Virus record (IMG/VR): IMGVR_UViG_3300036800_000522
Location: 1-33,327 of that record
DNA length: 33,327 bases
Strand: one strand, 5' to 3'
Source: a virus
A program made the position numbers and the translations under genes. Under the pieces are notes generated by a model. That model saw only the letters and a program-made list of their open reading frames with translations, did not search any database and was not told where the DNA came from. Below are positions 5,132-28,277 of this stretch, piece by piece (position 1 is the first letter of the stretch; the number at the start of each line of letters is the position of its first letter).

Positions 5132-5523
5132 AGACTCCTAAACTTCAGGACCTTAGCAACGAACAACTTGTTGAACGCTTCAAGGGGCTCTCGCTCCAGC
5201 AGGGTGACGCGGAGAGAAGCAATGACATGCGAACTTACAATCGGCGTTCCCAGCAATTGGAAGATGTTGGTGGGGAGCTGAAACGGCGGGGCACCGAAGC
5301 CAGGCGGGCTTTGGTGCCACTCCTCGATTGTCCGCGCGACGCCGGTGCCTTATCCGCTGTCGCCCAGTGCCGCTATAACGCGGCGCGGGAACTTCTTGCT
5401 GTGGAGCCCGCCCGTGCTCGAGCGACGCTCGAAGAGATCGCGAATAGTGTCACTCAGTACCAGATGGCCCACGCGCGCCGTACCTTAGGAATACTCGACG
5501 ATGGCACGTTAAAGCCAACCTAG
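5128..5523 (+). CDS. DUF2019-like small protein, putative immunity protein 1
   Basis: This 131-residue soluble, mostly helical protein resembles the DUF2019 family: 'LSNEQLVERFKGLSLQQGDA', KRRGTEARRALVPLLDC, then 'AARELLAVEPARARATLEEI' and an ending of DDGTLKPT. The family has no firmly known biochemical role. Its ATG overlaps the stop of the portal-nuclease gene by ATGA, which indicates translational coupling and suggests it protects the producing cell from the attached nuclease domain. The paralogue at 7575 has the same overlap with the second nuclease copy. It is closest to the copy at 5569, sharing NDMRTYNRR. Immunity is an inference from position and repetition. Confidence 0.7.
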   Translation: MKTPKLQDLSNEQLVERFKGLSLQQGDAERSNDMRTYNRRSQQLEDVGGELKRRGTEARRALVPLLDCPRDAGALSAVAQCRYNAARELLAVEPARARATLEEIANSVTQYQMAHARRTLGILDDGTLKPT

Positions 5524-5568
5524 TCTCAATATTTGGTCTCGGTGTGTTGCGAAAGTTGGAGTTATAAA
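5524..5568 (+). pseudogene. Remnant of a nuclease-domain 3' end
   Basis: The bases just before the second small gene align with the last codons of the portal-nuclease gene (5085-5131) with small gaps. The shared stretches are 'ctcggtgtgttgcgaaag', which matches ctcggcgtgttgcgagaa, and 'gttataaaatga', which matches gtgataaaatga. It carries the signature VLR..GVIK-stop overlapping the next ATG. It is therefore what is left of a duplicated nuclease gene after deletion. Confidence 0.7.
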
Positions 5569-5967
5569 ATGAAGACCCCAAACCTTCAGGAGCTTAGCAA
5601 CGAGCAGTTGACCGATCATTTCCAAGAGCTCTCACTCCAGCAAGGGGAGGCTGAGATGAGCAACGATATGCGGACTTACAATCGACGCTACCAACAGTTG
5701 AAAGATCTTAGTGCAGAATTAAGGCGACGTGGTCCGGAAGCGCGACGCGCGCTCGTGCCTCTCCTCAATTGTCCCCGTAGCGCGGGCCTACTATCCGCGG
5801 TCGCGCAGTGTCGTCTCAACGCGGCCCAGGAGCTGCTTGCGGTTGAACCAAACCGCGCGCGCGCGACACTTGAGGAGATTGCGAACAGCGTCGTCACTCA
5901 ATACCAAAGGTTGCTGGCGTACCAAATTCTAGAAGTGCTGAACGACGGCACGTTCAAGCCGACCTAA
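5569..5967 (+). CDS. DUF2019-like small protein, putative immunity protein 2
   Basis: This is a 132-residue paralogue of the gene at 5128, sharing MKTPNLQELSNEQL, NDMRTYNRR, RRRGPEARRALVPLLNC, LSAVAQC and ARATLEEIANSV. A one-residue insertion (VVTQYQ) and a changed tail (YQILEVLNDGTFKPT) set it apart. I chose ATG 5569 over the in-frame TTG at 5533 because all four paralogues start MK(T/S)P and the upstream bases are a nuclease-gene remnant. It has no intact partner nuclease of its own, so it would be an orphan immunity gene that may widen protection. Function is inferred from the family array. Confidence 0.65.
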   Translation: MKTPNLQELSNEQLTDHFQELSLQQGEAEMSNDMRTYNRRYQQLKDLSAELRRRGPEARRALVPLLNCPRSAGLLSAVAQCRLNAAQELLAVEPNRARATLEEIANSVVTQYQRLLAYQILEVLNDGTFKPT

Positions 5968-6039
5968 GACATGCATGCTGTAGCGGTTTGTGTGTCGTTG
6001 CTGCCGACTCATTGAAAGCTTTTTTCCTGATCTAATTCG

Positions 6040-6206
6040 CTCAACGCCGGCGACACGGCCGAGCGGCGGCATGCGAAGTTCGTGCCCGGCGGCGTCGCCA
6101 AAACTGTCGTGCCGGTGCGCGGACTGCGCCGGTTAAGGGACAAGAAATTCGACGAGCGCTATAATTCGGCATCGGTGTGTTGCGAAAGTTTGGAGTTATA
6201 AAATGA
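6040..6206 (+). pseudogene. Portal fragment joined to nuclease 3' end (deleted cassette)
   Basis: Bases 6040-6121 repeat portal bases 3605-3686 nearly exactly (LNAGDTAERRHAKFVPGGVAKT). After about 17 unrelated bases, 6139-6206 repeat the end of the nuclease domain (DKKFDERY, then FGIGVLRKFGVIK after restoring one missing base near 6163). The unit keeps the ATGA junction with the next small gene at 6203. It is a duplicated portal-nuclease gene from which almost everything between the two ends has been lost. Nothing here encodes a working protein. Confidence 0.75.
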
Positions 6207-6592
6207 AGACACCAAACCTTCAGGAGCTCAGCAATGAGCAATTGGCGGAGCGCTTCAAACTGCTGTCGTTCCAAGAGGACGAAGACGCGTGTAGCGCAAA
6301 GTACTATCAGATAGCCTACGATGAGCGAAGCAGGGTTACCGCGGAACTGAGGAAACGTGGGCAGGAAGCACGACGCGCGTTAATCCCCCTTCTCGATTGT
6401 CAGGACGATTCTCGAGGCATGTCGGCTGTCGCGCAGTGCCATTACAATGCTGCCCGTGAGCTGCTTGCCGTCGAGCCCGCCCGCGCTCGGGCGACGCTTG
6501 AGAAACTCGCGAACAGCGTCACTCAGTCGCAAATGTTTCAGGCTCGCCGGACTTTAGAAGTCCTCGACAACGGAACTTTGAAGCCGACCTGA
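6203..6592 (+). CDS. DUF2019-like small protein, putative immunity protein 3
   Basis: This is a 129-residue paralogue of the small genes at 5128, 5569 and 7575. The start MKTPNLQELSNEQLAERFK and the second half (RRALIPLLDC, MSAVAQC, 'AARELLAVEPARARATLEKL', DNGTLKPT) are conserved. The segment around residues 22-50 differs from copies 1 and 2 and instead resembles copy 4 (AKYYQIAYDE versus LKYYRKAHEK). If these are immunity proteins, that variable segment is the likely specificity region. Its ATG overlaps the stop of a deleted nuclease remnant, so it currently lacks an intact partner. Confidence 0.65.
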   Translation: MKTPNLQELSNEQLAERFKLLSFQEDEDACSAKYYQIAYDERSRVTAELRKRGQEARRALIPLLDCQDDSRGMSAVAQCHYNAARELLAVEPARARATLEKLANSVTQSQMFQARRTLEVLDNGTLKPT

Positions 6593-6667
6593 GGTAGGAG
6601 TGTAGTGGCGTGTTGGTGCGTCACCGTAGCCGGCGTGCTGAAAGTCCTTCCTTCCTGATCTGATTCG

Positions 6668-7132
6668 CTCAACGCGGGCGACACGGCCGAGGAGCGGCGG
6701 CATGCGAAGTTCGTGTCCGGCGGCGTCGCCAAGACCTTCGTGCCGGTGCGCGAGCCGGCGATGAAAGACGCGTTCGACGAATGGCTGGCGCGCATTGTCT
6801 GCTACGCCTTCTCGGTGCCGCCGTCCGCCTTCACCAGCCAGGTCAACCGCGCGACCGCCGACACGGCGCAGGACGTGGCGCTCTCCGAAGGCCTCGCGCC
6901 GCTGCAGCTTTGGGTGAAGCACCTCATTGATCGCGTGCTCGCCGAGGATTTCGGCGCAAGCGATCTCGAATTCGCCTGGGACCAGGACAAGAACACCGAC
7001 CCCGCGCAAACCGCGAGCATCGCCAGCGACTATGTCAGAAGCGGCATCAAGAGCATCAACGAGATCAATTGCCGGCGCCGACGAGCCGCAGCGATTCTTA
7101 CAACGCCGGAACAGATGTTGCGGAAAAGCTAA
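6668..7132 (+). pseudogene. Truncated second copy of the portal gene
   Basis: Bases 6668-7066 repeat portal bases 3605-4000 almost exactly, apart from a three-base insertion near 6690 (AEERRHAK). The copy covers LNAGDTAE to GIKSINEI. At 7066 it jumps straight to the start of the nuclease domain, skipping the portal end and linker (4001-4616). The join sits on a shared 'atc' and puts the nuclease out of frame, so the portal frame ends at 7132 with a meaningless arginine-rich tail. It lacks the first 272 portal residues and cannot make a portal. Confidence 0.8.
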
Positions 7133-7578
7133 AGCAAGCGATCAGTAATGGCTGGAACGATGTGGCTCAACAAATCGCCGACGTCGCTGATCCGGCGCAT
7201 CGGATCAGGAACCAAATTTCCAACATTATCGCAGACGTCGACTTCGGTTTAGGCGGACCGTACGATCTACAAACACTGATCGATAATGCTAAAGGGCCCT
7301 CACAAGAGGGATATGAGAAACATCATATCGTACCCGTGCAACGAGGCAGCGAAGACAAGGGCCTCAGCCCCGAGGACGAGGAGCGCATCGAGGGCCCAGA
7401 GAATCTCGTGCAGATTCCCAAGTATGTCCATCAGCGGATCACGAATTACTATAGAACGCCAATTGAGCGATCTCCTTTCAATGGCCAATCGCCGACAGAT
7501 TACCTGCACAACAAGAACTTTGATGAGCGCTACAAATTCGGCCAAAAAGTCTTGCGAGACTTTGGAGTTATAAAATGA
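7069..7578 (+). CDS. Orphan HNH-nuclease-like toxin domain (second copy)
   Basis: This is an open frame of up to 169 codons, about three quarters identical by hand count to residues 613-780 of the portal fusion. It starts in 'LPAPTSRSDSYNAGTDVAEK', keeps YEKHHIVP, PENLVQIPKYVHQ (the H-N-H set) and ends LRDFGVIK. Its stop overlaps the ATG of the fourth small gene, exactly as in the intact copy. There is no ATG at the front. The only in-frame start is TTG at 7069, with no convincing ribosome binding site, and it is out of frame with the portal fragment. It may be silent, a spare tip available for recombination into the portal gene, or weakly translated. The open frame and conserved motif suggest recent or ongoing selection. 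Confidence 0.65.
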   Translation: MPAPTSRSDSYNAGTDVAEKLKQAISNGWNDVAQQIADVADPAHRIRNQISNIIADVDFGLGGPYDLQTLIDNAKGPSQEGYEKHHIVPVQRGSEDKGLSPEDEERIEGPENLVQIPKYVHQRITNYYRTPIERSPFNGQSPTDYLHNKNFDERYKFGQKVLRDFGVIK

Positions 7579-7964
7579 AGAGCCCCGAGCTTCAGGACCT
7601 GACCGATGAAAAGCTTGCGGAATGTTTCAAGCTTGCCTCATTCCAAGAGGCGGAAGACATGAATAATCTAAAGTACTATCGAAAGGCCCACGAAAAGCTG
7701 AAAAGCGTTGCGGAGGAATTTCGGCGACGTGGCCCGGAGGCGCGACGGGCCTTGGTCCCTCTTCTCAATTGTCAAGACAACTCTCGCATAATGTCCGCAG
7801 TGGCGCAGTGCCGTCTGAACGCTGCCAACGAGTTGCTAGCCATAGAGCCGGCTCGAGCTCGAGCGACTTTGGAAGAGCTCGCGAACAGCGTCACCCAATA
7901 TCAGATGGCCTTGGCACGACAGACTTTGAGGGTGCTCAACGACGGCACGTTCAAGCCGACCTAA
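7575..7964 (+). CDS. DUF2019-like small protein, putative immunity protein 4
   Basis: This 129-residue protein is the partner of the orphan nuclease domain, with an ATGA start/stop overlap. It begins MKSPELQDLTDEKLAECFKL and shares RRRGPEARRALVPLLNC, MSAVAQCRLNAANELLAIEP and NDGTFKPT with the other three copies. The N-terminal half (EDMNNLKYYRKAHEKLKSV) is closest to copy 3. The pairing of a diverged nuclease with a diverged small protein is what co-evolving toxin and immunity pairs look like. The product is assigned by similarity to the DUF2019 family; the immunity role is inference. Confidence 0.65.
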   Translation: MKSPELQDLTDEKLAECFKLASFQEAEDMNNLKYYRKAHEKLKSVAEEFRRRGPEARRALVPLLNCQDNSRIMSAVAQCRLNAANELLAIEPARARATLEELANSVTQYQMALARQTLRVLNDGTFKPT

Positions 7965-7983
7965 GGAATCTCAATAGCAGCCA

Positions 7984-9411
7984 TCACTCCGCCGCTTCCG
8001 CCACGGCGCCGCTGCGCTCGCGCAGCAGATAGCTCAGCGCCGCGGCGAGGGCGGCGATGATCGTGCCGGTGAAGAAGGCGGCGTGGTAGCCGGCGGTCAG
8101 CGCGGCGCGGTGATCGGCGCCGGCGGCAGTGACTTGGTCGAGCCGCGCGTCGGCGAGGCTGGCGAGGATGGCGAGGCCGAGCGCGCCGCCCATCATGAAG
8201 CCGGTGTTGACGAGGCCCGAGGCGAGGCCCGATTCGCTGGCGCTGACATCGCTCATCGCGGCGAGCAGCACGGGATTGAAGGCGATGCCGCCGCCGATGC
8301 CGAGAAGGGTCATGGCCGGCAGCACGTCGTTCCAGAAATTTGCGTCGACCGGCGCGCGCGCGAAGAGTCCGAGCCCGGCGGCGGCGAAAAGCAGCCCCGC
8401 GGTCAGCGGGCGCTTGATGCCGAACCGCATCACGATCTTTGCCGAGAGGCCGAGCGAGAAGCCGCCCATGATGAGATTGGCCGGCAGGAAGGCAAGCCCG
8501 ACCTGAAACGGCGTGTAGTCGAGCACGAGCTGCATATAGAGCGCCGAGAGGAAGAACCAGGCGAAGAGCGCCGCCGCCCAGAGCACGCCGACGATGTTGG
8601 AGACGGTGAGGTTGCGCATCGCAAAGAGCCGCAGCGGCATCAGCGGCGCGGGCACGCGCGTCTCGACGGCGAGGAACACCGCGCCGAGCGTGCCGGCCGC
8701 GACGAGCAGCCCCAATGTCTGTACCGAGCCCCAGCCCGCCTGGTTGCCGTTGACGATGGCGTAGACCGCGAGCATCAGCGCCAAGGTTACGGTGATCGCG
8801 CCGGCGACATCGAGATGGCGCGAGCCGGCATGACCTTCCGCTTTTGGCAAGCGTGCGAGCGACAGTGCGACGACGACGACGCCGATCGGCACGTTGACGA
8901 GGAAGATCCAATGCCAGCTCAAGAGGTCGGTGAGGATGCCGCCGAGCAGTACGCCGACGCTGCCGCCGCCGGCGGCAACGAATCCGAAAACGCCCATCGC
9001 CTTGGCGCGCTCGGCCGGTGCGGTGAAGAGCGTCATCATCAGCGACAGCGCGACCGCGGATACGACCGCGCCGGCGAAACCTTGCAGCGCACGGGCCGCG
9101 ACCAGGAGGCCCTGTCCCGTGGAGAGGCCGCAGAGCAGCGAGGCGAGGGTAAAGAGCGCAATGCCGATGACGAACAATCGCCGGTGGCCGTAGAGATCGC
9201 CCAAGCGTCCGCCGAGCAGCAGGAAGCCGCCGAAGGTGAGGAGATAGGCGTTCACCACCCAGGCGAGCGATGACTCGGTGAAGCCGAGATCGGCGCGGAT
9301 CGACGGCAGGGCGACGTTCACGATGGTCGTATCGAGCACGATCATGAGATCGCCAAGGCACAAGATGAACAAGGCGAGCCAACGGCCGCCGTGACCGGCA
9401 TCATTTTGCAT
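7984..9411 (-). CDS. MFS transporter, DHA2 (drug:H+ antiporter-2) type
   Basis: This is a 475-residue, strongly hydrophobic protein of the 14-helix EmrB/QacA-like MFS group. The N-terminal LDTTIVNVALPSI is the DHA2 signature, and GGRLGDLYGHRR is motif A between helices 2 and 3. LVAARALQGFAGAVVSAVAL and FGFVAAGGGSVGVLLGGIL fit motifs B and C. Family members export drugs or other small molecules using the proton gradient; the substrate cannot be told. The gene is on the opposite strand from the phage genes and sits between the portal/immunity region and the prohead protease. It is cargo rather than a phage structural gene. Its stop lies 19 bases from the end of the fourth small gene. Confidence 0.9.
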   Translation of the reverse strand: MQNDAGHGGRWLALFILCLGDLMIVLDTTIVNVALPSIRADLGFTESSLAWVVNAYLLTFGGFLLLGGRLGDLYGHRRLFVIGIALFTLASLLCGLSTGQGLLVAARALQGFAGAVVSAVALSLMMTLFTAPAERAKAMGVFGFVAAGGGSVGVLLGGILTDLLSWHWIFLVNVPIGVVVVALSLARLPKAEGHAGSRHLDVAGAITVTLALMLAVYAIVNGNQAGWGSVQTLGLLVAAGTLGAVFLAVETRVPAPLMPLRLFAMRNLTVSNIVGVLWAAALFAWFFLSALYMQLVLDYTPFQVGLAFLPANLIMGGFSLGLSAKIVMRFGIKRPLTAGLLFAAAGLGLFARAPVDANFWNDVLPAMTLLGIGGGIAFNPVLLAAMSDVSASESGLASGLVNTGFMMGGALGLAILASLADARLDQVTAAGADHRAALTAGYHAAFFTGTIIAALAAALSYLLRERSGAVAEAAE

Positions 9412-12155: not shown

Positions 12156-13283
12156 TTATTTCGTTTGTTCCGCGGGCGAACATGACCCACTAAACAGCGG
12201 CTTGAGAGGATGCGCAGGATCGGGTGGATCGAGACAGCCGTTGATCCAGTGTCCTGTTACGGTCCCGCTTTTGGAGGTGTAAGCGCCGAAGCCATTTGGC
12301 CTGTCGTTGCGGAACTCCCCGTCGTAGTAGCTGCCGTCCGGCCACGTGAAAACGCCATGACCATCCATTTTATTGTCGCGGTACTCGCCCGCGTAGCTGA
12401 TGTGAAGCGGCGCGGTCCAGACGCCGTAACCGTTCTTCTTGTTGTCCCGGAATTCACCTTCGTACCGCGTAGACTTATTGATCCACACGCCATGACCATC
12501 CCAATTGCCATCGCGCCATTGGCCGTCGTAAGTCTCGCCGTTGGGATAAGTCATGATCCCGTGGCCGTTAAACTTGCCGTCGCGCATCTCGCCTTCGTAA
12601 CGGATCGTGCCTTTGCTTCCCGCCACGATAGTGACGCCGGTGCCATTCTTCTTGCCGTCAACCCAGTTGCCGTCGTAGCTGCTTCCGTCCGGCTGGGTCC
12701 AGCGACCGTGTCCGTTCTGCTCACCATTCCGCCACTCGCCGTCATAGCTGCCTTTCACAGAGGAAAGGATGCCGTGGCCATCGAACTTGCCGTTTTTCAA
12801 ATCGCCTTTGTAACGGTAATCGTTACCAATGGTGTAAATGCCGTGCCCGGTCATCTTCCCCGACTGAAAATCGCCGTCGTAGACGGCGCCGTTTGCAGAC
12901 CGCCATACGCCGTGGCCGTTCTTAATGCCTTCGACAAACTCGCCGTCGAAGCGAGAGCCGTTGGCCCGCGTATAGCTGCCATGTCCTGTCATTTTTCCGA
13001 TATGCCATTGACCTTCATCACGCTCGGTGGGTTTGCCGTCGACAGACCATTGAAGAGAGCCAGGCCCTTCGGCAAACCCGCTTTCGCAAGCCCCTGACCA
13101 CGCCGCGGTTTCGTTCGGCTTAGGGACCGGGTCCCAGACTTTGCAACCCGTATTTTGCTCGGCAATCCATGTTGATTGCGGCGAGGAGGCTGTTGTCGTC
13201 GCGGTGCAAGCCGCGATCACGTTGACGACGACGCACAGCAGAAAAGTGAGGCGGAATTTGTATTTGAACGCGCTTGAAAACAT
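12156..13283 (-). CDS. MORN-repeat lipoprotein
   Basis: This 375-residue protein starts with a lipoprotein signal (FLLCVVVNVIAAC, lipid-carrying Cys 26), so it should be membrane-anchored outside the cytoplasm. About eleven MORN repeats of roughly 22-23 residues follow, for example DGEFVEGIKNGHGVWRSANG, YDGEWRNGEQNGHGRWTQPD and YDGQWRDGNWDGHGVW. MORN repeats form an elongated beta structure and bind lipids or proteins; no enzyme domain is attached. Three cysteines outside the array (in NTGCKVWD, SGACESGF and GCLDPP) could form disulfides. The gene is reversed and lower in GC than its neighbours, splitting the capsid gene from the head-tail connector. It is probable cargo expressed from the resident element. 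Confidence 0.85.
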   Translation of the reverse strand: MFSSAFKYKFRLTFLLCVVVNVIAACTATTTASSPQSTWIAEQNTGCKVWDPVPKPNETAAWSGACESGFAEGPGSLQWSVDGKPTERDEGQWHIGKMTGHGSYTRANGSRFDGEFVEGIKNGHGVWRSANGAVYDGDFQSGKMTGHGIYTIGNDYRYKGDLKNGKFDGHGILSSVKGSYDGEWRNGEQNGHGRWTQPDGSSYDGNWVDGKKNGTGVTIVAGSKGTIRYEGEMRDGKFNGHGIMTYPNGETYDGQWRDGNWDGHGVWINKSTRYEGEFRDNKKNGYGVWTAPLHISYAGEYRDNKMDGHGVFTWPDGSYYDGEFRNDRPNGFGAYTSKSGTVTGHWINGCLDPPDPAHPLKPLFSGSCSPAEQTK

Positions 13284-17507: not shown

Positions 17508-17612
17508 GCCCGAGACGACGAAAAGCCTTCGCCCAACCGATCGTCCGTGCCCACGCTTGAAGTGCCGCGCGGGCTCCTGCATGCTGCCTCGAACAGTGGC
17601 GGGGAGGACAAA

Positions 17613-18632
17613 ATGGGTTCCTGGAAGCAGCTTGTCTCGGTTGCGGCGGTCGCGCTTGCCGTGGCGGCATCGCCGATCGTTTCGCGCGCCGACGACAAGC
17701 CGATCGATGTCATTTTCGCGCTGCCGTCGCCGACGCTGACCTTCAGCGCGCCCTTCCTTGCCGAGGATGCCGGGCTCTATAAGAAAGAAGGGCTCAACGT
17801 CTCGCATCGCATGCTGGTGGGCGTCGAGGCGGTGAACGCGGTTATCGCCGGCAGCGCCGATTTCACCGACAGCACCGGTCCCGTCTTTCTGCGCGCCAAT
17901 GCCAAGGGGCAGCCGCTGGTCGCGATCGCGAATCTCATCGACAAGCCGTTGGTCGAGATGGTGCTGCGCACCGACGTCTATGACGCGCTGCATGTGACCG
18001 ACGGCATGTCGCTGAAAGAGCGCGGCGCGCTCCTCAAAGGCAAGACCATCGCGATCCAGGGAGTCGGCAGCATCATCCATGCGTGGGAACGCTTCGTCGC
18101 GGCGCGCGGCGGGCTCGATCCCGAGAACGACGTGCGTATTGCGCCGATGGACCCGCCGGCGATGATGGGTGCGTTGCAGACCAAGGCGGTCGACGGCTTC
18201 GCCACCTCCCTTCCGTATACGACCGAGCCCGTTCTGAACGGCATGGCCAAGATGTTTGCCAGCGCACCGGAAGGTATCGCGCCCGACATGATCCCGTTCC
18301 CTTACGGCTTGATCATGGCGCGGCCGCAGACCTGTAAGGACAATGCGGAGAAATGCCGGCGCATGGCGCATGCGCTCGCCGCCGCCAACAAGATGATCCA
18401 CGATCAGCCGGATCAGGCGCTCGATATCTTGAGCAAGCGCTTCAAGACGATGGATCAGAATGTGCTGAAAGCGGCGTGGAAGACCGTCGCCGCGGCGCAC
18501 GCGACCGATCTGCGCGTCACGCAGAAGATCCTCGAGACCGGCAACCAGATGAACGCCGAAGCGAAGCTCTTAAAGCCCGAGGACCAGGTCAAATCCTATG
18601 ACGGGCTGTTCACCGATCAGTATCTGAAATAA
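17613..18632 (+). CDS. ABC transporter substrate-binding protein (NMT1/THI5-like)
   Basis: This 339-residue periplasmic binding protein has a clear Sec signal (MGSWKQLVSVAAVALAVAAS, cleavage near SRA-DD). The mature part follows the NMT1/THI5/SsuA pattern: FLAEDAGLYKKEGLNVSHRM, AVNAVIAGSADFTDSTGP, 'ALLKGKTIAIQGVGSIIHAW' and MGALQTKAVDGFATSLPYT. Relatives capture pyrimidine precursors, sulfonates, nitrate-like or aromatic compounds; the ligand here is unknown. I chose ATG 17613, with GGGGAGG upstream, over a start at 17547 because it gives a proper signal peptide. No permease or ATPase gene is nearby, so it is an orphan, probably using a host transporter or left from a moved operon. Confidence 0.88.
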   Translation: MGSWKQLVSVAAVALAVAASPIVSRADDKPIDVIFALPSPTLTFSAPFLAEDAGLYKKEGLNVSHRMLVGVEAVNAVIAGSADFTDSTGPVFLRANAKGQPLVAIANLIDKPLVEMVLRTDVYDALHVTDGMSLKERGALLKGKTIAIQGVGSIIHAWERFVAARGGLDPENDVRIAPMDPPAMMGALQTKAVDGFATSLPYTTEPVLNGMAKMFASAPEGIAPDMIPFPYGLIMARPQTCKDNAEKCRRMAHALAAANKMIHDQPDQALDILSKRFKTMDQNVLKAAWKTVAAAHATDLRVTQKILETGNQMNAEAKLLKPEDQVKSYDGLFTDQYLK

Positions 18633-18727: not shown

Positions 18728-19783
18728 CTAAGCCAGCCCCGCGATCTTCACCGCTTCGAGGTGGTCGGCGAGGAGCTGCGGCAATTGCTCGGGCGGCGTG
18801 CGCCCGAAGCCGCAATAGGCGGCGAGGCCGAAGCGCGGCAGGTATTTGCGTGCGACATCGATGCGCGCCTTGAGCGTCGGCATCGAATGGATGGCGCCGA
18901 GATAGACATCGCCGCTTTTGGCCGAAAGCTGCGCCAGCGGCGCGTAGAATTTATCCTCGATCGTGTCGAGCACCGGGATATGCACCCAGTCGACGCGCCT
19001 TCCGGCGGCTTCGATCGAGGCATTGGCGAGATCGACGGTCGGGCCCAAGGTCTCGGGCGCAAAAGCCGGCCAGCCGCCGAATGTGCCAAAGCAGAAATGA
19101 AAGCCGAGCGCGACGCCGTCGGGCAGGCGCTTCGACAGCCGTGCGACCGGCGCGGTGTGGGTTTCGACTTTTGCTTCGTCGGCTGTCTTTGCGGCGCCGG
19201 AGACGGCCTGGATTTCCCAGGCCATGTCCCATTGGATCGCGAGGTCCTTTGCCGGGATGTGCTTCACGATGACATCGAGCTCGGCGCCAAGCGCTTCCTC
19301 GAAGCCGGGGCGGATGCGAAGAACGTCCTGCGGATCGGGGAAATAGAGCGCGCGCACGACGCTGTTGACCATCGGGATCGAGATCTGGAAGCGCACACCC
19401 GCGGGCAGCAGGGCTTTCTCGCGCAGCGTCTTGAAGACGAAATACGAAGCCACCGCGTCGCGCGCGTAGCCGAGCCGCGTGCCGGGATTGCCGAAGCGCA
19501 CGCGCTCGACGTTGGGCCGCACGCGGAATTGCCAGGAATCCTCGCGGCTGCGCGGCAAGAGCTGTTCGACGCCGTCGACCGGTGTGGGCCGCTTCAAGGT
19601 CTCGAGATCGGCGTGACCGTTGAACAACAGATAGCAGAAGCGATTGACCCACGAGCGGCGCTCGCCGACCTCGCCATCCGGCACGGCCGGGAGATAGCGG
19701 CCGAGCGGGCCGCCGAATTCTGTCATCACCTCTTCGACCGTGTCGAAGGGCACGCTGCCGACGAGCAAGAGTTCTTTGTTCAT
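18728..19783 (-). CDS. Methionine synthase II (MetE C-terminal)/UROD-like barrel protein
   Basis: This 351-residue single-domain protein resembles the C-terminal barrel of cobalamin-independent methionine synthase. It keeps an H-x-C pair (H229, C231 in GFHFCFGTFGGW) and a later Cys (C324 in AAYCGFGR), corresponding to three of the four MetE zinc ligands. The usual Glu ligand is not obvious (DWVHIPVLDT). 'LLLVGSVPFDTVEEVMTEFG' and LPAVPDGEVGERRSWVNRF mark the N-terminus. Such stand-alone proteins may transfer methyl groups from varied thiol or corrinoid donors; the reaction here is unknown. I chose ATG 19783 because GGAGTG precedes it; an earlier start at 19867 would overlap the neighbouring gene. 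It is cargo, transcribed against the tail genes. Confidence 0.8.
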   Translation of the reverse strand: MNKELLLVGSVPFDTVEEVMTEFGGPLGRYLPAVPDGEVGERRSWVNRFCYLLFNGHADLETLKRPTPVDGVEQLLPRSREDSWQFRVRPNVERVRFGNPGTRLGYARDAVASYFVFKTLREKALLPAGVRFQISIPMVNSVVRALYFPDPQDVLRIRPGFEEALGAELDVIVKHIPAKDLAIQWDMAWEIQAVSGAAKTADEAKVETHTAPVARLSKRLPDGVALGFHFCFGTFGGWPAFAPETLGPTVDLANASIEAAGRRVDWVHIPVLDTIEDKFYAPLAQLSAKSGDVYLGAIHSMPTLKARIDVARKYLPRFGLAAYCGFGRTPPEQLPQLLADHLEAVKIAGLA

Positions 19784-19793
19784 GTCACTCCGA

Positions 19794-20111
19794 TCAATCC
19801 GGCTTCCGCCATTCACTGATGAAGCCTTGCCAACCAACGTAAATAAAATAGCCAACGACGAAGGCAATCAATAGAGCCAGAAAGATGTAGAAGGCGTGCC
19901 AGTAGAGCGCTATCGAATCCCATTCGGTTTGGGTCAAATAGCGCGTGCCCATCCCTCGCACGGACAATTCAATCGTGTGGCCGGTCGCGTTGTTCGGGAC
20001 GGTCGGATCACCCGAAAATCGACCGGAAACCGATATCGCGAAAACAAGACTCACCATCATCGGAATAAACAGGCCGATTGCGATTCTGTTTCCGATTTTG
20101 CCGAAACTCAT
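19794..20111 (-). CDS. Small two-helix membrane protein, unknown function
   Basis: This 105-residue protein has two predicted membrane helices: IAIGLFIPMMVSLVFAISVS near residues 10-29 and 'WHAFYIFLALLIAFVVGYFI' near 71-90. Between them is a polar loop (SGDPTVPNNATGHTIELSVR) and the C-terminus is short and polar (SEWRKPD). I recognise no family. Base composition is lower in GC than the neighbouring phage genes. It is followed after ten bases by the MetE-like gene on the same strand, so the two may be co-transcribed from a promoter in the 71 bases that separate it from the divergent tail-chaperone gene. Confidence 0.6.
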   Translation of the reverse strand: MSFGKIGNRIAIGLFIPMMVSLVFAISVSGRFSGDPTVPNNATGHTIELSVRGMGTRYLTQTEWDSIALYWHAFYIFLALLIAFVVGYFIYVGWQGFISEWRKPD

Positions 20112-20182
20112 GGTCTGCCGTCGTTCGCCAAAGCTCTAACAGCGTTTTACTTCTTTTCTCATCTTAACGAAGAGTGGACATC

Positions 20183-20509
20183 ATGACGACCATCACTTTG
20201 GGTGGGCGGCGCTTTGCGTTGCGCCCACTGACGTTGGGGCAGTTGCGCCGCGTGCTGCCCGCTTTCGCGCGTGCCGCAGGCCTTGCCCAGGAAGAGGCGA
20301 TCGACGCCGCGATCGACATTCTTGCCGCGGCGCTGGAGCGCGATCACCCGGCGATGACACGCGATGTGTTGCTCGACGTCGAACTGCGCCCGGTCGAGCT
20401 GATCGGCGCGGTCGATGCGATCGCGCGGCTCTCGGGTCTCGTTGCCGAGGAGGGCGCGGGGTTGGGGGAGCTCGCGGCGTCGGCTGGGGCGAGCTTTACG
20501 GCCTCCTAG
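20183..20509 (+). CDS. Tail assembly chaperone, short (G-like) product
   Basis: This 108-residue helical protein starts MTTITLGGRRFALRPLTLGQ, then LRRVLPAFARAAG, and contains AAIDILAAALERDHPAMTRD and VELIGAVDAIARLSGLVAEE. Position directly before the tape measure and a second open frame overlapping its end mark it as the tail assembly chaperone. That protein coats the tape measure during tail assembly. ATG 20183 is preferred over an in-frame GTG at 20174. The last codons are low-information (AASAGASFTAS-stop), as expected if most of the functional C-terminus lies in the shifted frame. Confidence 0.75.
   Translation: MTTITLGGRRFALRPLTLGQLRRVLPAFARAAGLAQEEAIDAAIDILAAALERDHPAMTRDVLLDVELRPVELIGAVDAIARLSGLVAEEGAGLGELAASAGASFTAS
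20462..20470 (+). promoter_or_regulatory. Candidate -1 ribosomal slip site
   Basis: The sequence ttGGGGGag has codons TTG GGG GAG in the chaperone frame. A tRNA on GGG can re-pair with GGG one base back, after which reading continues GGA GCT into the extension frame. It is not a perfect X-XXY-YYZ heptamer. A second, weaker place is ctggggc at 20484-20490. Confidence 0.4.
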
Positions 20510-20718: not shown

Positions 20719-21609
20719 ATGGCCGACGATCAGATTCAGGTTCAGATCACCGCCGACACCTCGCAATTCGAGGCGGCGATGGCGAACGCCGCCGCAGCGG
20801 CGCAAGCCAGCTTCGACAAGATCAAGCAAGCGGCGGACGGTGCAACAAGCAGCATTAACGGTGCCGGTCAGCAGAACCGCACTGCCGGCCAGGCCGGCGA
20901 GAGGGCCAATCAGGAATGGGGGAAGTCTTTCTCCAATCTGCAGGGCACGATCAACAGCTCGATCACCGGCATGATCATGGGCACGACGACCTGGCAGAAA
21001 GCCGTGCAAAAGCTGACTCAGACCGCGCTCAAGGATTTTCTGACCGCGACCGAGAAGAGTGCAGAGAGTTGGCTCGTCAGCGAGCTCACGAAAACAGGCA
21101 GCACGGAAGCCGGAGTCGCAGCCCGCACAGAGGTTGAGAATGCCGGCCAGTCAGCCGGCCTCAGTGACATGCTCATGAGCGCGCTCAAGGAGATCAGCAC
21201 GTCGGCCGCAACGGCGGCAGCAAAGGCTTATGCAGCTGTCAGCGGCATTCCCTATGTCGGCCCGATCCTCGCGCCTGCTGCGGCGGCCGCGGCTTTTGCC
21301 GCCGTTCTCGCTTTCGGTGGTAAGCTTCCGTCGAGCGCCGGCGGTCTCTGGAACGTGCCGTCGGACACGATGGCCTTCATTCATAAACAGGAGACCATCC
21401 TCCCTGCGCATATCGCGCAGCCGATGCGCGATTTCTTCACCGGCGGCGGCGCGACGGCGGGCGGCGGCGGCAATTTCGCCGTCACGATCCAGGCGATCGA
21501 TACGCAGACCGGCGCGCAATTCCTGATGAACAACGCCGGCACGATCGCGCAGGGGCTGGCGCGCGAGATGCGCAATGGCAATTCGGCTTTGCGGAGCGCA
21601 CTCAAATGA
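20719..21609 (+). CDS. Short tail tape measure protein
   Basis: This 296-residue protein follows the tail chaperone. The N-terminus (MADDQIQVQITADTSQFEAA, then MANAAAAAQASFDKIKQAAD) is the standard tape-measure start. The middle (TINSSITGMIMGTTTWQKAV, ALKDFLTATEKSAESWLVSE) and a hydrophobic Ala-rich segment ('GPILAPAAAAAAFAAVLAFG') are the usual later elements. The C-terminus has 'GGLWNVPSDTMAFIHKQETI' and a Gly-rich loop. Most siphophage tape measures are 600-1500 residues. At roughly 0.15 nm per residue this one would set a tail of only about 45 nm, in the range of gene-transfer-agent tails. A strong site (GGAGGGAAG) precedes the ATG. Confidence 0.8.
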   Translation: MADDQIQVQITADTSQFEAAMANAAAAAQASFDKIKQAADGATSSINGAGQQNRTAGQAGERANQEWGKSFSNLQGTINSSITGMIMGTTTWQKAVQKLTQTALKDFLTATEKSAESWLVSELTKTGSTEAGVAARTEVENAGQSAGLSDMLMSALKEISTSAATAAAKAYAAVSGIPYVGPILAPAAAAAAFAAVLAFGGKLPSSAGGLWNVPSDTMAFIHKQETILPAHIAQPMRDFFTGGGATAGGGGNFAVTIQAIDTQTGAQFLMNNAGTIAQGLAREMRNGNSALRSALK

Positions 21610-22226
21610 GCATTTCGGTCTTTCCGACGCTCGCCGGCCTTGGCTGGTCGGTGACGCGGCGCGAGATGTGGAAGACGCGCAGCCAGCAAGCGATCAGCGG
21701 CAAGGAGACGCGCATCGCCGATTGGTCTTATCCGCGTCACCAATGGACGCTGAGCTTCGATTTCCTGCGCCAGGGCGCGTTGTCGGGCGGGAGCTATGCC
21801 GAGTTCGCGCAACTCGCGGGCTTCTTCAATCTGCGCCAGGGCATGTTCGATTCCTTTCTCTATGCCGATGCCGACGACAACAGCGTCACGGGGCAGGGGA
21901 TCGCGACCGGCGACGGCTCGACTCGGTCTTTTGCTTTCGTGCGCGGTTTCGGCGGCTTCACCGAGCCGATTCTTGCGCCGAACGTGGTGAGCCACGTCTA
22001 CCTGAACGGTGTCGCGCAAAGCCCGAGCAGTTATGCCGTGAATTTCTGGGGCAGCAGCACGCCGGGCACGCTGGTCTTTACGACGGCGCCCGCGAGCGGC
22101 GTCGCCATTGTCGCCGATTTCAGCTTCTACTTTCCCTGCCGCTTCGCCGCCGACGATATGGATTTCGAGAAATTCATGGCGGCGCTCTACGAGGCGAAGA
22201 AAGTGACCTTCGTGAGTCTCAAATGA
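21606..22226 (+). CDS. DUF2460 tail protein (RcGTA gp12-like)
   Basis: This 206-residue protein matches the DUF2460/TIGR02217 family of distal tail proteins, which link the tail tube to the tip hub. Signature parts are 'GLGWSVTRREMWKTRSQQAI', then KETRIADWSYPRHQWTLSF, 'FAQLAGFFNLRQGMFDSFLY' followed by ADADDNSV, and at the end DFSFYFPCRFAADDMDFEKF. The start overlaps the tape-measure stop (ATGA) and the stop overlaps the next ATG. It is the first of the DUF2460-DUF2163-NlpC/P60-tip series that is diagnostic for RcGTA-type tails. Confidence 0.9.
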   Translation: MSISVFPTLAGLGWSVTRREMWKTRSQQAISGKETRIADWSYPRHQWTLSFDFLRQGALSGGSYAEFAQLAGFFNLRQGMFDSFLYADADDNSVTGQGIATGDGSTRSFAFVRGFGGFTEPILAPNVVSHVYLNGVAQSPSSYAVNFWGSSTPGTLVFTTAPASGVAIVADFSFYFPCRFAADDMDFEKFMAALYEAKKVTFVSLK

Positions 22227-23096
22227 AGCCCGCCTCGACCGCTCTGCAGAACCTGCTCGCGAGCCGGCAGTTCTTCGCCGTCGATCTCTATACCTTCACG
22301 CTCATCGGCGGCGGGGTGCTGCGTTACTGCAGCGGCGATCGCGATATCACCGCCGCCGGACATCTTCACCGCCCAAGGCCCGCGCATCGATCGCAAGGAC
22401 AACAAGGCGAAATGCCATTGGAAAATCGGCGTCGAGGTCGACACGCTGGTCTTCGATGTGATGCCGCAAGCGAGCGACATGGTGGGCGGGTTGCCGTTCC
22501 TGGCTGCGTGCGTGCAAGGCGCGTTCGACGGCGCCGAGCTGCAATTGGAGCGCGCCTTCATGGCGACCTACGGCGACACCTCGGTCGGGACGGTGATCAT
22601 GTTCGTCGGCCGCGTCGCCGAGATCGATCTCGGCCGTGCCGTTGCGACCTTCACCATCAACAGCCATCTCGAGCTGCTCAATCTGCAACTGCCGCGCAAT
22701 CTCTGGCAGCCGGGCTGCGTCAATTCGCTGGGCGATCCGAGTTGCGGCGTGAGTTTGGCGAGCTTCGCGGTGAGCGGCAGCGCTGCCGCCGGGTCGAGCG
22801 CCAGCGCGATCACGGCGACGCTCGGCCAGCCGACGAGTTATTTCGATCAGGGCAAGCTCATCTTTACCAGCGGCGCGAATACGAGTCTGACGCGCTCGGT
22901 CAAATCCTGGGTCGCGGGTTCGCCGGGCACGATCGCGTTGCTCGCCCCCTTCCCGAATACGCCAGCCACGGGCGATAGCTTCACGATCTATCCCGGCTGC
23001 GACAAGACGCTGGGTACGAACGGCTGCGCCAAATTCGCCAACACCGCGCGGTTCAAAGGCTTTCCCTACGTCCCGACATCGGAGACGGCGGTGTGA
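22223..23096 (+). pseudogene. DUF2163 tail-tip hub protein, frameshifted
   Basis: The first frame gives MKPASTALQNLLASRQFFAV and FTLIGGGVLRYCSGDRDITAA up to about 22360. The continuation (IFTAQGPRIDRKDNKAKCHW, KIGVEVDTLVFDVMPQASDM and the rest to TSETAV at 23096) is in the +1 frame from 22362. The two halves join into one DUF2163/BR0599-type protein of about 290 residues. Its end has 'YPGCDKTLGTNGCAKFANTA' and RFKGFPYVP, cysteines typical of the family. One extra base near 22358-22361 explains the break. RcGTA gp13 relatives carry a metal-binding hub. Either the gene is inactivated or there is a sequencing error. Confidence 0.8.
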
Positions 23097-23663: not shown

Positions 23664-24134
23664 ATGATCGACATCGACGCAGAGCGCCAAGCGGTGGTGG
23701 CCGAGGCGCGCCAATGGTTGCGCACGCCGTATCATCATATGGGCCGCGTCAAAGGCGCGGGCGTCGATTGCGCGACGTTGCTCGCCGAGGTCTATGCGCG
23801 CGCCGGCGTCGTGCCGTCCGTCGCGATCCCGTTTTATCCGCCGGATTGGCATCTGCATCGCGATGCGGAGCGGTATCTGGGCTTCGTGGTGGCGCATGCG
23901 GGCGAGATCGCCGGCGATCCGCTGCCAGCCGATATCGCGTTGTGGCGTTTCGGGCGCTGCTTCTCGCACGGCGCGATCGTCATCGACTGGCCGGTGGTCA
24001 TTCATGCTTATGCCGGCAGAGGGTGCGTACTCGAGGACACCTCGCACGCGCGGTGGCTGTCGCAGATCGGCGAGCGCGGCGGATCGCAGAAGCGGCCGGT
24101 CAAATTCTTTCGACTTAAACGCTGGATGGCCTGA
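23664..24134 (+). CDS. NlpC/P60 family tail peptidase (RcGTA gp14-like)
   Basis: This 156-residue protein is an NlpC/P60 cysteine peptidase that cuts peptidoglycan stem peptides as the tail enters the cell. The nucleophile is C36 in KGAGVDCATLLAEVYARAG, with H102 in RCFSHGAIVIDW and H114 in VVIHAYAGRG completing the active site. The N-terminal WLRTPYHHMGRVK is characteristic of the phage subgroup (TIGR02219). GAGGAAA precedes ATG 23664. It is followed after one base by the tip gene, and it is the fourth gene of the GTA-type tail-tip series. Confidence 0.9.
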   Translation: MIDIDAERQAVVAEARQWLRTPYHHMGRVKGAGVDCATLLAEVYARAGVVPSVAIPFYPPDWHLHRDAERYLGFVVAHAGEIAGDPLPADIALWRFGRCFSHGAIVIDWPVVIHAYAGRGCVLEDTSHARWLSQIGERGGSQKRPVKFFRLKRWMA

Positions 24135-24135
24135 C

Positions 24136-26583
24136 ATGGCGTCGATTTTCGGCAGCAGCAGCAAGCCGCAAGCCCAGCAACAGCCGGCACTGTCCGCGTT
24201 GCCCATCCAGACGGCGACTTACGCCAAGGTCATTCCGCTCGTCTATGGCACGACGCGCATCGCGCCGAACCTGATCTGGTACGGCGATTTTGTCGCGACG
24301 CCGCATAATTCGGGCAGCAGCGGCGGCGGCAAGGGCGGGGTTGTCGGCGGTGGCGGTGGCGGCGGCAAAGGCGGGGGCGGCGGCACCACGACTTACACCT
24401 ACACAGCGTCCGTCGCGCTCGGCCTCTGCGAAGGACCGATCGTCGGTGTCGGCACGGTGTGGGCCACGAAGACGGAGACGTCGCTCGCCGAACTCGCGCT
24501 CACCGTGCTGCTCGGCGAATATGCGCAGCCGCCATGGAGCTATCTGAGCTCGGTCCATCCCGATCAGGCGCTCGGCTATAGCGGCACGGCCTATGTCGCG
24601 GGCGCGGGCTACCAGCTCGACGACGGTGCGCAGTTGCCCAATCACAACATGGAGGTCGCGGGATTTTTCGCCGACACCGCGCCCGGCGTGCCCGATGCGG
24701 ATCCGAGTCAGGTCGTCGTCGATCTCTTGACCAATCCGCTGTGCGGCGCCGGCTTTCCCGCAGCGCGCCTCGGCAGTCTCGCGGTTTATCAGAGCTACGC
24801 GCTCGCCGCCGGGCTGTGGATCTCGACCGCCTATTCCGAATAGGCGCAGGCTTCGCAAATGCTCGACGACATCGTGAGCTTCACCAACAGCGCCTTTGTC
24901 TGGTCGAGCGGCGTGCTGGGTATCGTGCCTTATGGCGATGCCGCGCTATCGGCGAATGGCTATAGCTATACGCCACCCTCGGCGCCGCTTTACGATCTTG
25001 GCGACGACGACTTCCTCGACAACAGCGCGACCGGCTCGGCCTCGTCGAGCACCGATCCGGTGCTGGTGACGCGGAAACGCCCGGCCGACGCGCTCAACGA
25101 CATCACGCTCGAATTCCTCGATCGCGGCAAACAATACAACACCGGCGTCGTCGAGGCCTCGGATCAGGCGGCGATCGATCTTTACGGGTTGCGCACCGAG
25201 AAGGCGCAACAGGCGCATCTTTTCGCCGACATCAATGCCGCGCGCCACGCGGCGCAGCTGCGGCTGCAACGCCAGGCGGTGCGCAACACCTATCAGTTCA
25301 CGCTCGACCAGCGGTACATCCTCTTGGATCCGATGGATATCGTGACGTTGACCGATGCGCGGCTCGGTCTTGCGCGGCAATGGGTGCGGATCACCGAGAT
25401 CACCGAGAACGACGACGGCACGCTGCTGTTCGCGGCGGAGGATTATCTCGCCGGCACCGGTTCGGCCGCGACCTATTCCTTCGCCAGCGGCGCGGGGTAT
25501 TCCGCCGATTATAACGTCGATCCCGGCGACGCGCTGGCGCCGATCGTGTTCGAGCCGCCGGCGCAGATTGCATCGAGCGCGCTCGAGATCTGGATGGCGA
25601 CGGCGGGCGGGCCGCTCTGGGGCGGCGCCGATATCTACGTCTCGAGCGACGGTGCGACCTATAAGCTCGCCGGCCGCACGAACGGCCCGGCGCGGATGGG
25701 TGTGCTGACCGCAAGCTTTGCTGCGGGAGGCGATCCGGATACGAGCGATACGATCGCGGTCGATCTCTCATCCTCGCGCGGTACGTTGCTGTCGGGCACG
25801 CAGAGCGATGCCGATCTGGGCCATACGCTTTGCTATGTTGCGAACGCGCCAACCGGCTATGAGCTCGTCAGCTATGAGAGCGCGAGCCTCACCGGAACGA
25901 ATGCTTATACGCTCGGCAGCTATTTGCGGCGCGGCCTTTACGGGACGACGATCGCCGGTCACGCGCTCAGCGCGCGATTTACGCGGCTCGACGACGCGAT
26001 CGTCAAGCTGAGCTACGACAAGAGCCAGATCGGCTCGACGATCTATCTGAAGCTCGTCTCATTCAATTTGTGGAGCGGCGGCGCGCAGCAACTGGCCGAT
26101 GTGACCGCCTATACGCATGTCATCGCCGGCCCGCCGCGGCCGCCCAATGTCACGGGCTTCGCGGCGCAACAATCCGGCGTCGTGGTCGCGTTCGGCTGGG
26201 ATGCGGTGAATGATGTCGCGCTGAAGGGCTATGACATCGGCTACGCGCCGCAGGGGACGAGCGACTGGTCGCTGTTCAGCCTGCTGACCGAAGCGGCGGC
26301 CGGCACCGAGATGACGAATGCGGAAGTGCCACCGGGCAGTTGGACCTTCGGCATTCGTGCGCACGATATCGCCGATCAGCTGTCGCCGGCGATCAGCACG
26401 CTCGATCTCGTTGTCACGAACGCCCTACCGGTCATCTCGGCCGCCGACGCGGCGCCGGCCTGGAGCGCAACGACCTATTACGATTTGGGCAATTTCAAAG
26501 ACGCAGCCGTCGCAACCGTCGCCTGCGGCGCTTTCGCAAGCGATCCGGTCGCGGCGGTCGTCGATCTTGGAGGGTTTTCATGA
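24136..26583 (+). pseudogene. Tail tip/hub protein (RcGTA gp15-like) interrupted by an amber codon
   Basis: One reading frame runs from ATG 24136 to TGA 26583 (815 codons) but contains a single TAG at 24841-24843. Before it are SKPQAQQQPALSALPIQTAT, YAKVIPLVYGTTRIAPNLIW, a Gly/Lys-rich loop (residues about 55-85), VALGLCEGPI and 'GSLAVYQSYALAAGLWISTA' followed by YSE. After it come AQASQMLDDIVSFTNSAFVW and SSGVLGIVPYGDAAL, then 'GLRTEKAQQAHLFADINAAR' and a fibronectin III-like end (PPRPPNVTGFAAQQSGVVVA). The protein reads smoothly across the stop, where a Gln (CAG to TAG) is natural. It is either a nonsense mutation, a suppressed amber, or two products restarted at ATG 24859. The full product would be the tail's central hub and fibre-attachment protein. 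Confidence 0.8.
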
Positions 26584-27257
26584 GCGAGCAATTGCAACTG
26601 CGGCGCGACACGCAAGCGAATGTCGCGGCGGCTATCCCCGCCGCCGGCGAGCTGGCGCTCGATACCACGCGTAACGCGCTGTTGGTCGGCGATGGCGCGA
26701 CGGCAGGCGGAACGGCGTCGGCGCTGCTGGCGCTGTTCGGCGGCTATCTCACCGGACGTTATTATTTTTGCGGCTCGCTGATCAGCTCGGCGAATTTCAC
26801 GCTCGGCGCCAACAATTTGCTGGCGGTGCCATTCTTCTGCCTGCAGAAGCAGATATTCACGAAGATCGGTGTCAACGTGACGACGACCGGCGGCAATCTG
26901 CGGCTCGGCGTCTATGCCTCGACCGCCGGCGCCGTGCCGTCGACGCTCGTGCCCGGCTCCGATTCCGGTACTTTTTCGGTGACGACCACCGGCATCAAAG
27001 AAACAACCGGATTGTCGATCGCGCTCACGCCCGGCCTTTATCATCTGGCGATCGTCGGCGACGCGTCGGTCGGCGTCACGGGGGTCACGCCGTGCAGCCA
27101 GTTCCAGAATCTCACCGGGATCGGCTCGACCTCGCCGACGACCCTCAACGAAACCGGCTTTCTCAACGGCTTCGTCTTCGGCGCGATGCCCGCGACCTTT
27201 CCCAGCCCCGCCGCCGTCGGCAACGGCAGCGTGCCGGGTATCTGGCTCCGGCTCTGA
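26580..27257 (+). CDS. Tail fibre/structural protein with fibre N-terminal motif
   Basis: This 225-residue protein starts at an ATG overlapping the tip gene stop (ATGA). The first 45 residues, MSEQLQLRRDTQANVAAAIP and ELALDTTRNALLVGDGATAG, are the 'LRRDT..N......GEL..DTT...L.VGDG.TAGG' motif common at the N-termini of prophage tail fibres, where it attaches to the tail. The remainder is beta-rich (CLQKQIFTKIGVNVTTTGGN, LRLGVYASTAGAVPSTLVPG) and ends SVPGIWLRL. The likely role is as a fibre or tip decoration protein that contacts host surface polymers; this is inferred from motif and place. Confidence 0.75.
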   Translation: MSEQLQLRRDTQANVAAAIPAAGELALDTTRNALLVGDGATAGGTASALLALFGGYLTGRYYFCGSLISSANFTLGANNLLAVPFFCLQKQIFTKIGVNVTTTGGNLRLGVYASTAGAVPSTLVPGSDSGTFSVTTTGIKETTGLSIALTPGLYHLAIVGDASVGVTGVTPCSQFQNLTGIGSTSPTTLNETGFLNGFVFGAMPATFPSPAAVGNGSVPGIWLRL

Positions 27258-27266
27258 GCGCGGCCC

Positions 27267-28277
27267 ATGACCGCTCTGCGCACCAGCCTTTTCGGCCTCT
27301 TCACAGGTCCCTCGACAGGCTCCGGAGGCTTCGCGCGCCATTACACCGGCGTACTGACGCCGCGCGGATCGAAAGGCGTCGATAGCTACATACGCATCGC
27401 GGCGCCCGCGGCGCCGTCGCTCAGCCAGGTGGCGGGCGGATCGCTCGCGGCGGCGACCCTCTTTGCCAAAGCGACCCTGGTCAGCCCGAGCGGCGAGACC
27501 GCTGCCTCGAGCGAAAGCTCGCTCGCGGTCTCAGCGAATAATCTTTTGCGCATCGCCGCGCCGGCAAGTGCGGGTAATGCCACCGGATGGAATGCTTATG
27601 TCGCCGGCGCCAGCGGTGCGGAAACATTGCAAAACGCGACGCCGATCGCGCTCGGCACGAATTGGACGGAGCCGACGAGCGGGCTTGTGACCGGCACCGC
27701 GACGCCGCCCGCGGCGAACACGACCGGCTGGGATGTGTTCAATCTCTTCGTGCCGGATCCCGTGGCGAGCGCGAGCTTCATTGCCGATCCGGTCGATACC
27801 GGCTTCAATGCCGAGCTGCGCGTCTTTCTCACCGCAAGTTTCGGCTTGGGGTTTGGCCAAAGCGGCAGTCCGGCAATCGGCTACGCGATCGACACCTGGC
27901 TCGGCGGTCAAGCCGATCCCGGCAGCTTCACCGCATGGCCGAGCGTCGGTTATGTCGTCATGCGCTATCTCCGCGCGCGCCTTTCCTATACGCCGGTGCA
28001 AGGCGCGCTTGCCTATATCGGGGATTTCGTTCCGACGATCGATACAGCGCCGACCGTCGAGACCGGCAATTCGCTGACCGTCGGGGCGGGCGGTACGACG
28101 ATCACTTTTCCGGCGCAATTTCATGCGCCGCCGCAAGTCATCGCGACCTGCATCAGCAGTGCGTCGCTGGTCGCGAGCGTCGCGAGCGTGACCGCGACGG
28201 GCTGCACCTTCCATGTATGGAACAGCAGCGGCGTCGATGTCGGCGGCGTGATCAATTACGAGGCGATCGGGGAATAG
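27267..28277 (+). CDS. Putative tail fibre / receptor-binding protein with H-type-lectin-like end
   Basis: This 336-residue protein starts MTALRTSLFGLFTGPSTGSG. The middle contains two copies of a beta pattern with Thr/Ala/Gly-rich strands ('ATLVSPSGETAASSESSLAV', 'GNATGWNAYVAGASGAETLQ'), as in fibronectin-like fibre repeats. The C-terminus (TTITFPAQFHAPPQVIATCI, then GCTFHVWNSSGVDVGGVINY and EAIGE) resembles an H-type lectin sandwich, in which a strand with 'F..PP.V' and a final '.w.AIG' are typical. That would make it a carbohydrate-binding receptor protein. The lectin call is by motif only. Confidence 0.6.
   Translation: MTALRTSLFGLFTGPSTGSGGFARHYTGVLTPRGSKGVDSYIRIAAPAAPSLSQVAGGSLAAATLFAKATLVSPSGETAASSESSLAVSANNLLRIAAPASAGNATGWNAYVAGASGAETLQNATPIALGTNWTEPTSGLVTGTATPPAANTTGWDVFNLFVPDPVASASFIADPVDTGFNAELRVFLTASFGLGFGQSGSPAIGYAIDTWLGGQADPGSFTAWPSVGYVVMRYLRARLSYTPVQGALAYIGDFVPTIDTAPTVETGNSLTVGAGGTTITFPAQFHAPPQVIATCISSASLVASVASVTATGCTFHVWNSSGVDVGGVINYEAIGE

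Follow-up and report, generated by a model that had tools for sequence, protein, structure and literature searches.

The tail-tip gene of the window, a 33,327-base viral contig in IMG/VR that makes up a whole virus record, is interrupted by an in-frame amber codon, which is probably a real nonsense mutation that arose recently in a prophage with incipient decay of its tail genes. The TAG lies on the plus strand at 24841-24843 and forms codon 236 of a frame that runs for 815 codons from the ATG at 24136 to the TGA at 26583 in the window sequence. A preceding sequence-only reading had described a single TAG in an otherwise open frame, and this description is accurate, as the frame contains no other internal stop. 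Among the listed open reading frames, one stops at 24843 and the next begins at ATG 24859, which is codon 242 and the first restart. The same reading regarded this ATG as the only nearby restart; the ATG is present, but in-frame GTG codons follow at 24874, 24913 and 24925. The features referred to below are as follows.

21606-22226, plus strand: DUF2460 distal tail gene, intact (PF09343, E 1.8e-42)

22223-23096, plus strand: baseplate hub gene, RcGTA g13 / Rcc01696-like, frameshifted near 22363 (PF09931 and PF09356; PHROG 778; one open reading frame in relatives)

23664-24134, plus strand: tail peptidase-type gene (NlpC/P60, g14-like), intact (PHROG 329 minor tail protein; BLAST match annotated NlpC/P60)

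24136-26583, plus strand: tail-tip gene of the gpJ / Rcc01698 'megatron' type, 815 codons, interrupted at 24841 (Pfam; PHROG 1101; 815-aa homologue in L107; predicted fold matching RcGTA 6tba and lambda J)

24136-24843, plus strand: truncated N-terminal product of 235 residues, ending within the central tip domain

24841-24843, plus strand: in-frame amber codon TAG (sequence; sense codon in all 91 relatives checked)

24859-26583, plus strand: downstream open frame of 574 aa, which could be made only via re-initiation at ATG 24859

26580-27257, plus strand: Mtd_N-type receptor-binding candidate after the tip gene, common to L107 (PF18454; 42% identical homologue in L107's contig)

27267-28277, plus strand: separate gene with an end matching the last ~200 residues of the tip protein in other relatives

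For the searches and for one fold prediction only, the tip protein (P0001) was read through with the TAG as Gln. In this protein, the Pfam domain Phage-tail_3 (PF13550; 94 bits against a cut-off of 23) spans the stop and Rcc01698_C (PF23666; 53.3 bits against a cut-off of 27) follows it, whereas the PHROG 1101 tail protein family matches residues 115-796 with an E value of 1.7e-112. Together with the uninterrupted open reading frame of the relatives, this confirms the earlier view that the sequence reads naturally across the TAG and represents one gene. A sequence search of solved structures with the tip protein gave nothing useful, and the predicted model is modest (mean pLDDT 66.7, pTM 0.41). 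Residues 26-454 of the model can nevertheless be placed on the RcGTA megatron chain 6tba_8A (Z 19.7, 4.4 A over 345 residues), and the model also matches the tip proteins of R4C, Chi, JBD30 and lambda J. According to the prediction, the TAG falls into the middle of this central domain, with residue 236 being the first residue of a helix comprising residues 236-249, and invariant residues flank residue 236 on both sides. The gene order is also that of this class of tip, with a DUF2460 gene, the hub gene (PF09931/PF09356) and a PHROG 329 gene preceding the tip gene, the last of these ending one base before the tip start codon. Domains, predicted fold and genomic place all identify the gene as coding for a siphophage / RcGTA tail-tip protein of the gpJ / Rcc01698 type.

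In RcGTA, the hub, the peptidase and the tip 'megatron' are encoded by g13, g14 and g15, respectively, and trimers of the hub and megatron proteins form one compact baseplate complex (PMC7296036). The window resembles this g13-g14-g15 module in the order DUF2460-hub-peptidase-tip, in the presence of Rcc01698_C and in the predicted fold of residues 26-454. It differs in that the tip has 815 residues, whereas the RcGTA megatron (Rcc01698) has about 1,300, in that the tip gene is interrupted and the hub gene frameshifted, and in that the phage containing the module also has genes for terminase, portal and lysis. Similarly, matches by Foldseek and VIA-align that cover most of the model, as well as the gene position behind the hub and peptidase genes, link the protein to the siphophage central tips lambda gpJ, T5 pb3, Chi, JBD30 and R4C, although the identity is only 9-18% and the window copy is interrupted.

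The codon at the site was compared in about 90 relatives, which were examined as two sets of 15 and 76 loci overlapping by a few contigs. Twelve of the 15 loci have Gln and three have Ala, while the 76 further IMG/VR loci have Gln (67, CAG or CAA), Ala (eight) or Met (one); a stop is found at the site in none of the 15 and in no aligned stretch of the 76. The aligned sequences indicate that the stop is unique to the window copy among the relatives examined. In the closest relative, L107 (IMGVR_UViG_3300037235_000325), the tip is likewise exactly 815 codons long, with 80.6% identity and CAG at the site. L107 shares with the window the 815-codon tip, the following Mtd_N-type gene, the downstream layout and two of the same cargo genes, and differs in the sense codon at the site and in an unbroken hub gene.

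Two further peculiarities of the window have counterparts in L107. The usual C-terminal domain of the tip sits in the gene at 27267-28277, which also contains an additional internal segment; L107 is alike, and in L012 and L014 the domain is fused to the tip. We considered the displaced domain as a third lesion and rejected this, as both the 815-codon tip and the layout recur in L107, which makes it a natural variant. Likewise, portal fragments at 6040-6121 and 6668-7066 were rejected as signs of recent decay because L107's contig also has extra portal fragments (L188, 6465-6791 and 7927-8260). In the window these fragments, which repeat 3605-4000 (93%) and 4617-5522, alternate with a DUF2019 gene that is present in four diverged copies (5128-5523, 5533-5967, 6203-6592 and 7575-7964), and the region 5063-7966 is a tandem amplification. 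Bacterial-type cargo genes lie amid the head and tail genes, namely a gene for an MFS transporter (7984-9411, minus strand), a MORN-repeat protein (12156-13283, minus strand), an NMT1/THI5-like binding protein (17547-18632, plus strand) and an unassigned gene (18728-19867, minus strand), the last two of which occupy the same place in L107's contig with 81% and 84% identity, respectively (L188/L189).

A second lesion, which the sequence-only reading had missed, affects the hub gene two genes upstream of the tip gene. Hub codons 1-50 lie in frame 2 and the remainder in frame 3, and each half carries part of PF09931 (Pfam). In L107/L189, L002 and L014 the hub is a single open reading frame of 291 codons; compared with relatives, the window DNA has a net loss of two bases (or a gain of one) near 22363, outside any homopolymer run. 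A survey of 80 loci showed the hub in one frame in 74, and a single lineage, represented by the two records L151 and L152, looks broken inside the hub, apparently near residue 82-85 and thus at another place than the window. The two lesions differ in type and are less than 2.5 kb apart, and the genes affected encode two interlocking proteins of the baseplate core. All other conserved structural genes compared with relatives are open, that is, those for the terminases, portal, protease, major capsid, adaptor, neck, tail tube and tape measure as well as DUF2460, the peptidase, the endolysin and the holin.

Selection on the tip gene is not visibly relaxed after the TAG, which fits a recent lesion and an error alike. 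Against L107, dN/dS amounts to 0.17 for the part before the TAG and 0.21 for the part after it, with intact genes at 0.16-0.28; against L012/L014 it is 0.23-0.26 on either side, and the comparison of L012 with L014 gives 0.17 and 0.22 for the two sides. As the values are equal on both sides and like those of intact pairs, the mutation is either recent relative to these divergences or not real.

We propose that the record derives from a siphophage-type prophage of an alphaproteobacterium and that the nonsense mutation arose in a copy with morphogenesis genes under weak or no selection. We infer the prophage status from the relatives L012 and L014, which are part of long MAG contigs assigned to Rhodospirillales; against this reading, neither an integrase nor an attachment site was identified in the record. 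Translation would yield 235 of the 815 residues and break off halfway through the central tip domain, presumably giving no functional tip trimer. With the hub broken as well, no baseplate would be formed and the element by itself would probably yield no infectious particles. The intact orthologues lack the disabling mutations, with 0 stops in the 91 relatives and no counterpart of the hub frameshift in L107, L002 or L014. The sequence-only reading had named a nonsense mutation, a sequencing error and a suppressor as options; of these, nonsense is best supported, owing to the second lesion in the partner hub, the uniqueness of the stop and the unrelaxed dN/dS, and suppression is disfavoured. 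Defective (cryptic) prophages similarly show recent nonsense and frameshift lesions amid otherwise conserved morphogenesis genes, although just two lesions were found in the window.

The main rival is that the TAG is a sequencing or assembly error and that the real phage has a sense codon at 24841, and also an intact hub gene, which we consider possible though rather unlikely. Either lesion could be an assembly error, and this speaks against decay. The record is an IMG/VR viral contig, and IMG/VR holds no near-identical second record with either base at the site that would confirm the sequence. Moreover, the absence of decay in dN/dS on either side of the TAG and the open, low-dN/dS state of the other structural genes would be expected equally if the phage were functional and its record contained two errors. 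The occurrence of two separate lesions within 2.5 kb that differ in type argues against error, however, and so does the nature of each. A loss of two bases or a gain of one outside a homopolymer run, as in the hub gene, is atypical of short-read errors, and natural nonsense mutations commonly arise through a C-to-T change in a Gln codon.

Alternatively, the tip could be a working protein in two pieces, with translation stopping at the TAG and restarting 15 bases on at ATG 24859, and with the two chains co-assembling. Besides this ATG and the GTG codons nearby, the start of Phage-tail_3 near the break would suit such an arrangement, and natural two-gene tips do occur in the family. In L009 (2995-5684) and L011 the break is near residue 140, with a TGATG overlap read in L009, and nine IMG/VR loci (L128, L146, L147, L154, L156, L163, L172, L180 and L183) have a split at residues ~436/440, which was also seen in several genomes and lies where the central domain (26-454) gives way to the fibronectin-type part (461-763). 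However, no natural split is found at 236, the TAG lies within the central domain, where a restart would truncate the predicted helix, and the hub is broken anyway, so that a split working tip is very improbable.

Still less probable is that an amino acid is inserted at the amber codon, either by a host suppressor tRNA or through recoding by the phage. The frame is natural across the stop and the relatives tolerate Gln, Ala or Met at the site, as such a reading would have it. Against this, TAG is the normal stop of four other genes, namely terL (2498), the major tail protein gene (16595) and the genes at 20174-20509 and 27267-28277. The terL genes of L021 and of L107's contig likewise end in TAG at the matching place, and the relatives of the major tail protein and of the 27267-28277 product end at the same residue, with TAG or other stops. 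Furthermore, only one gene of the window has an internal TAG, no tRNA genes were found within the 33,327 bases and the stop is not conserved. As TAG ends these four genes and their homologues end there too, phage-wide recoding is very unlikely, and we rejected it; for contrast, PMC10607447 describes a recoded phage with TAG in 41 ORFs. Conserved read-through of in-frame stops, as known from bacterial genes (PMC7918605), was also rejected because no relative has kept the stop. Least probable of all is that the amber codon acts as a switch, giving the tip only in hosts or states with enough read-through or letting the halves act separately, and thus tying tail activity to translation fidelity.

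Taken together, the finding is most likely an ordinary one, a prophage that lost its function recently, with no special genetic code involved, and a possible false claim of a code change is thereby removed. It illustrates that a complete-looking viral contig can carry a non-functional tail, and with lesions in both partners of the baseplate core, reads would be needed before this element is listed among infectious phages. In addition, the natural two-gene split of the tip family at a domain border, which is present in several lineages, is useful for the annotation of these genes.
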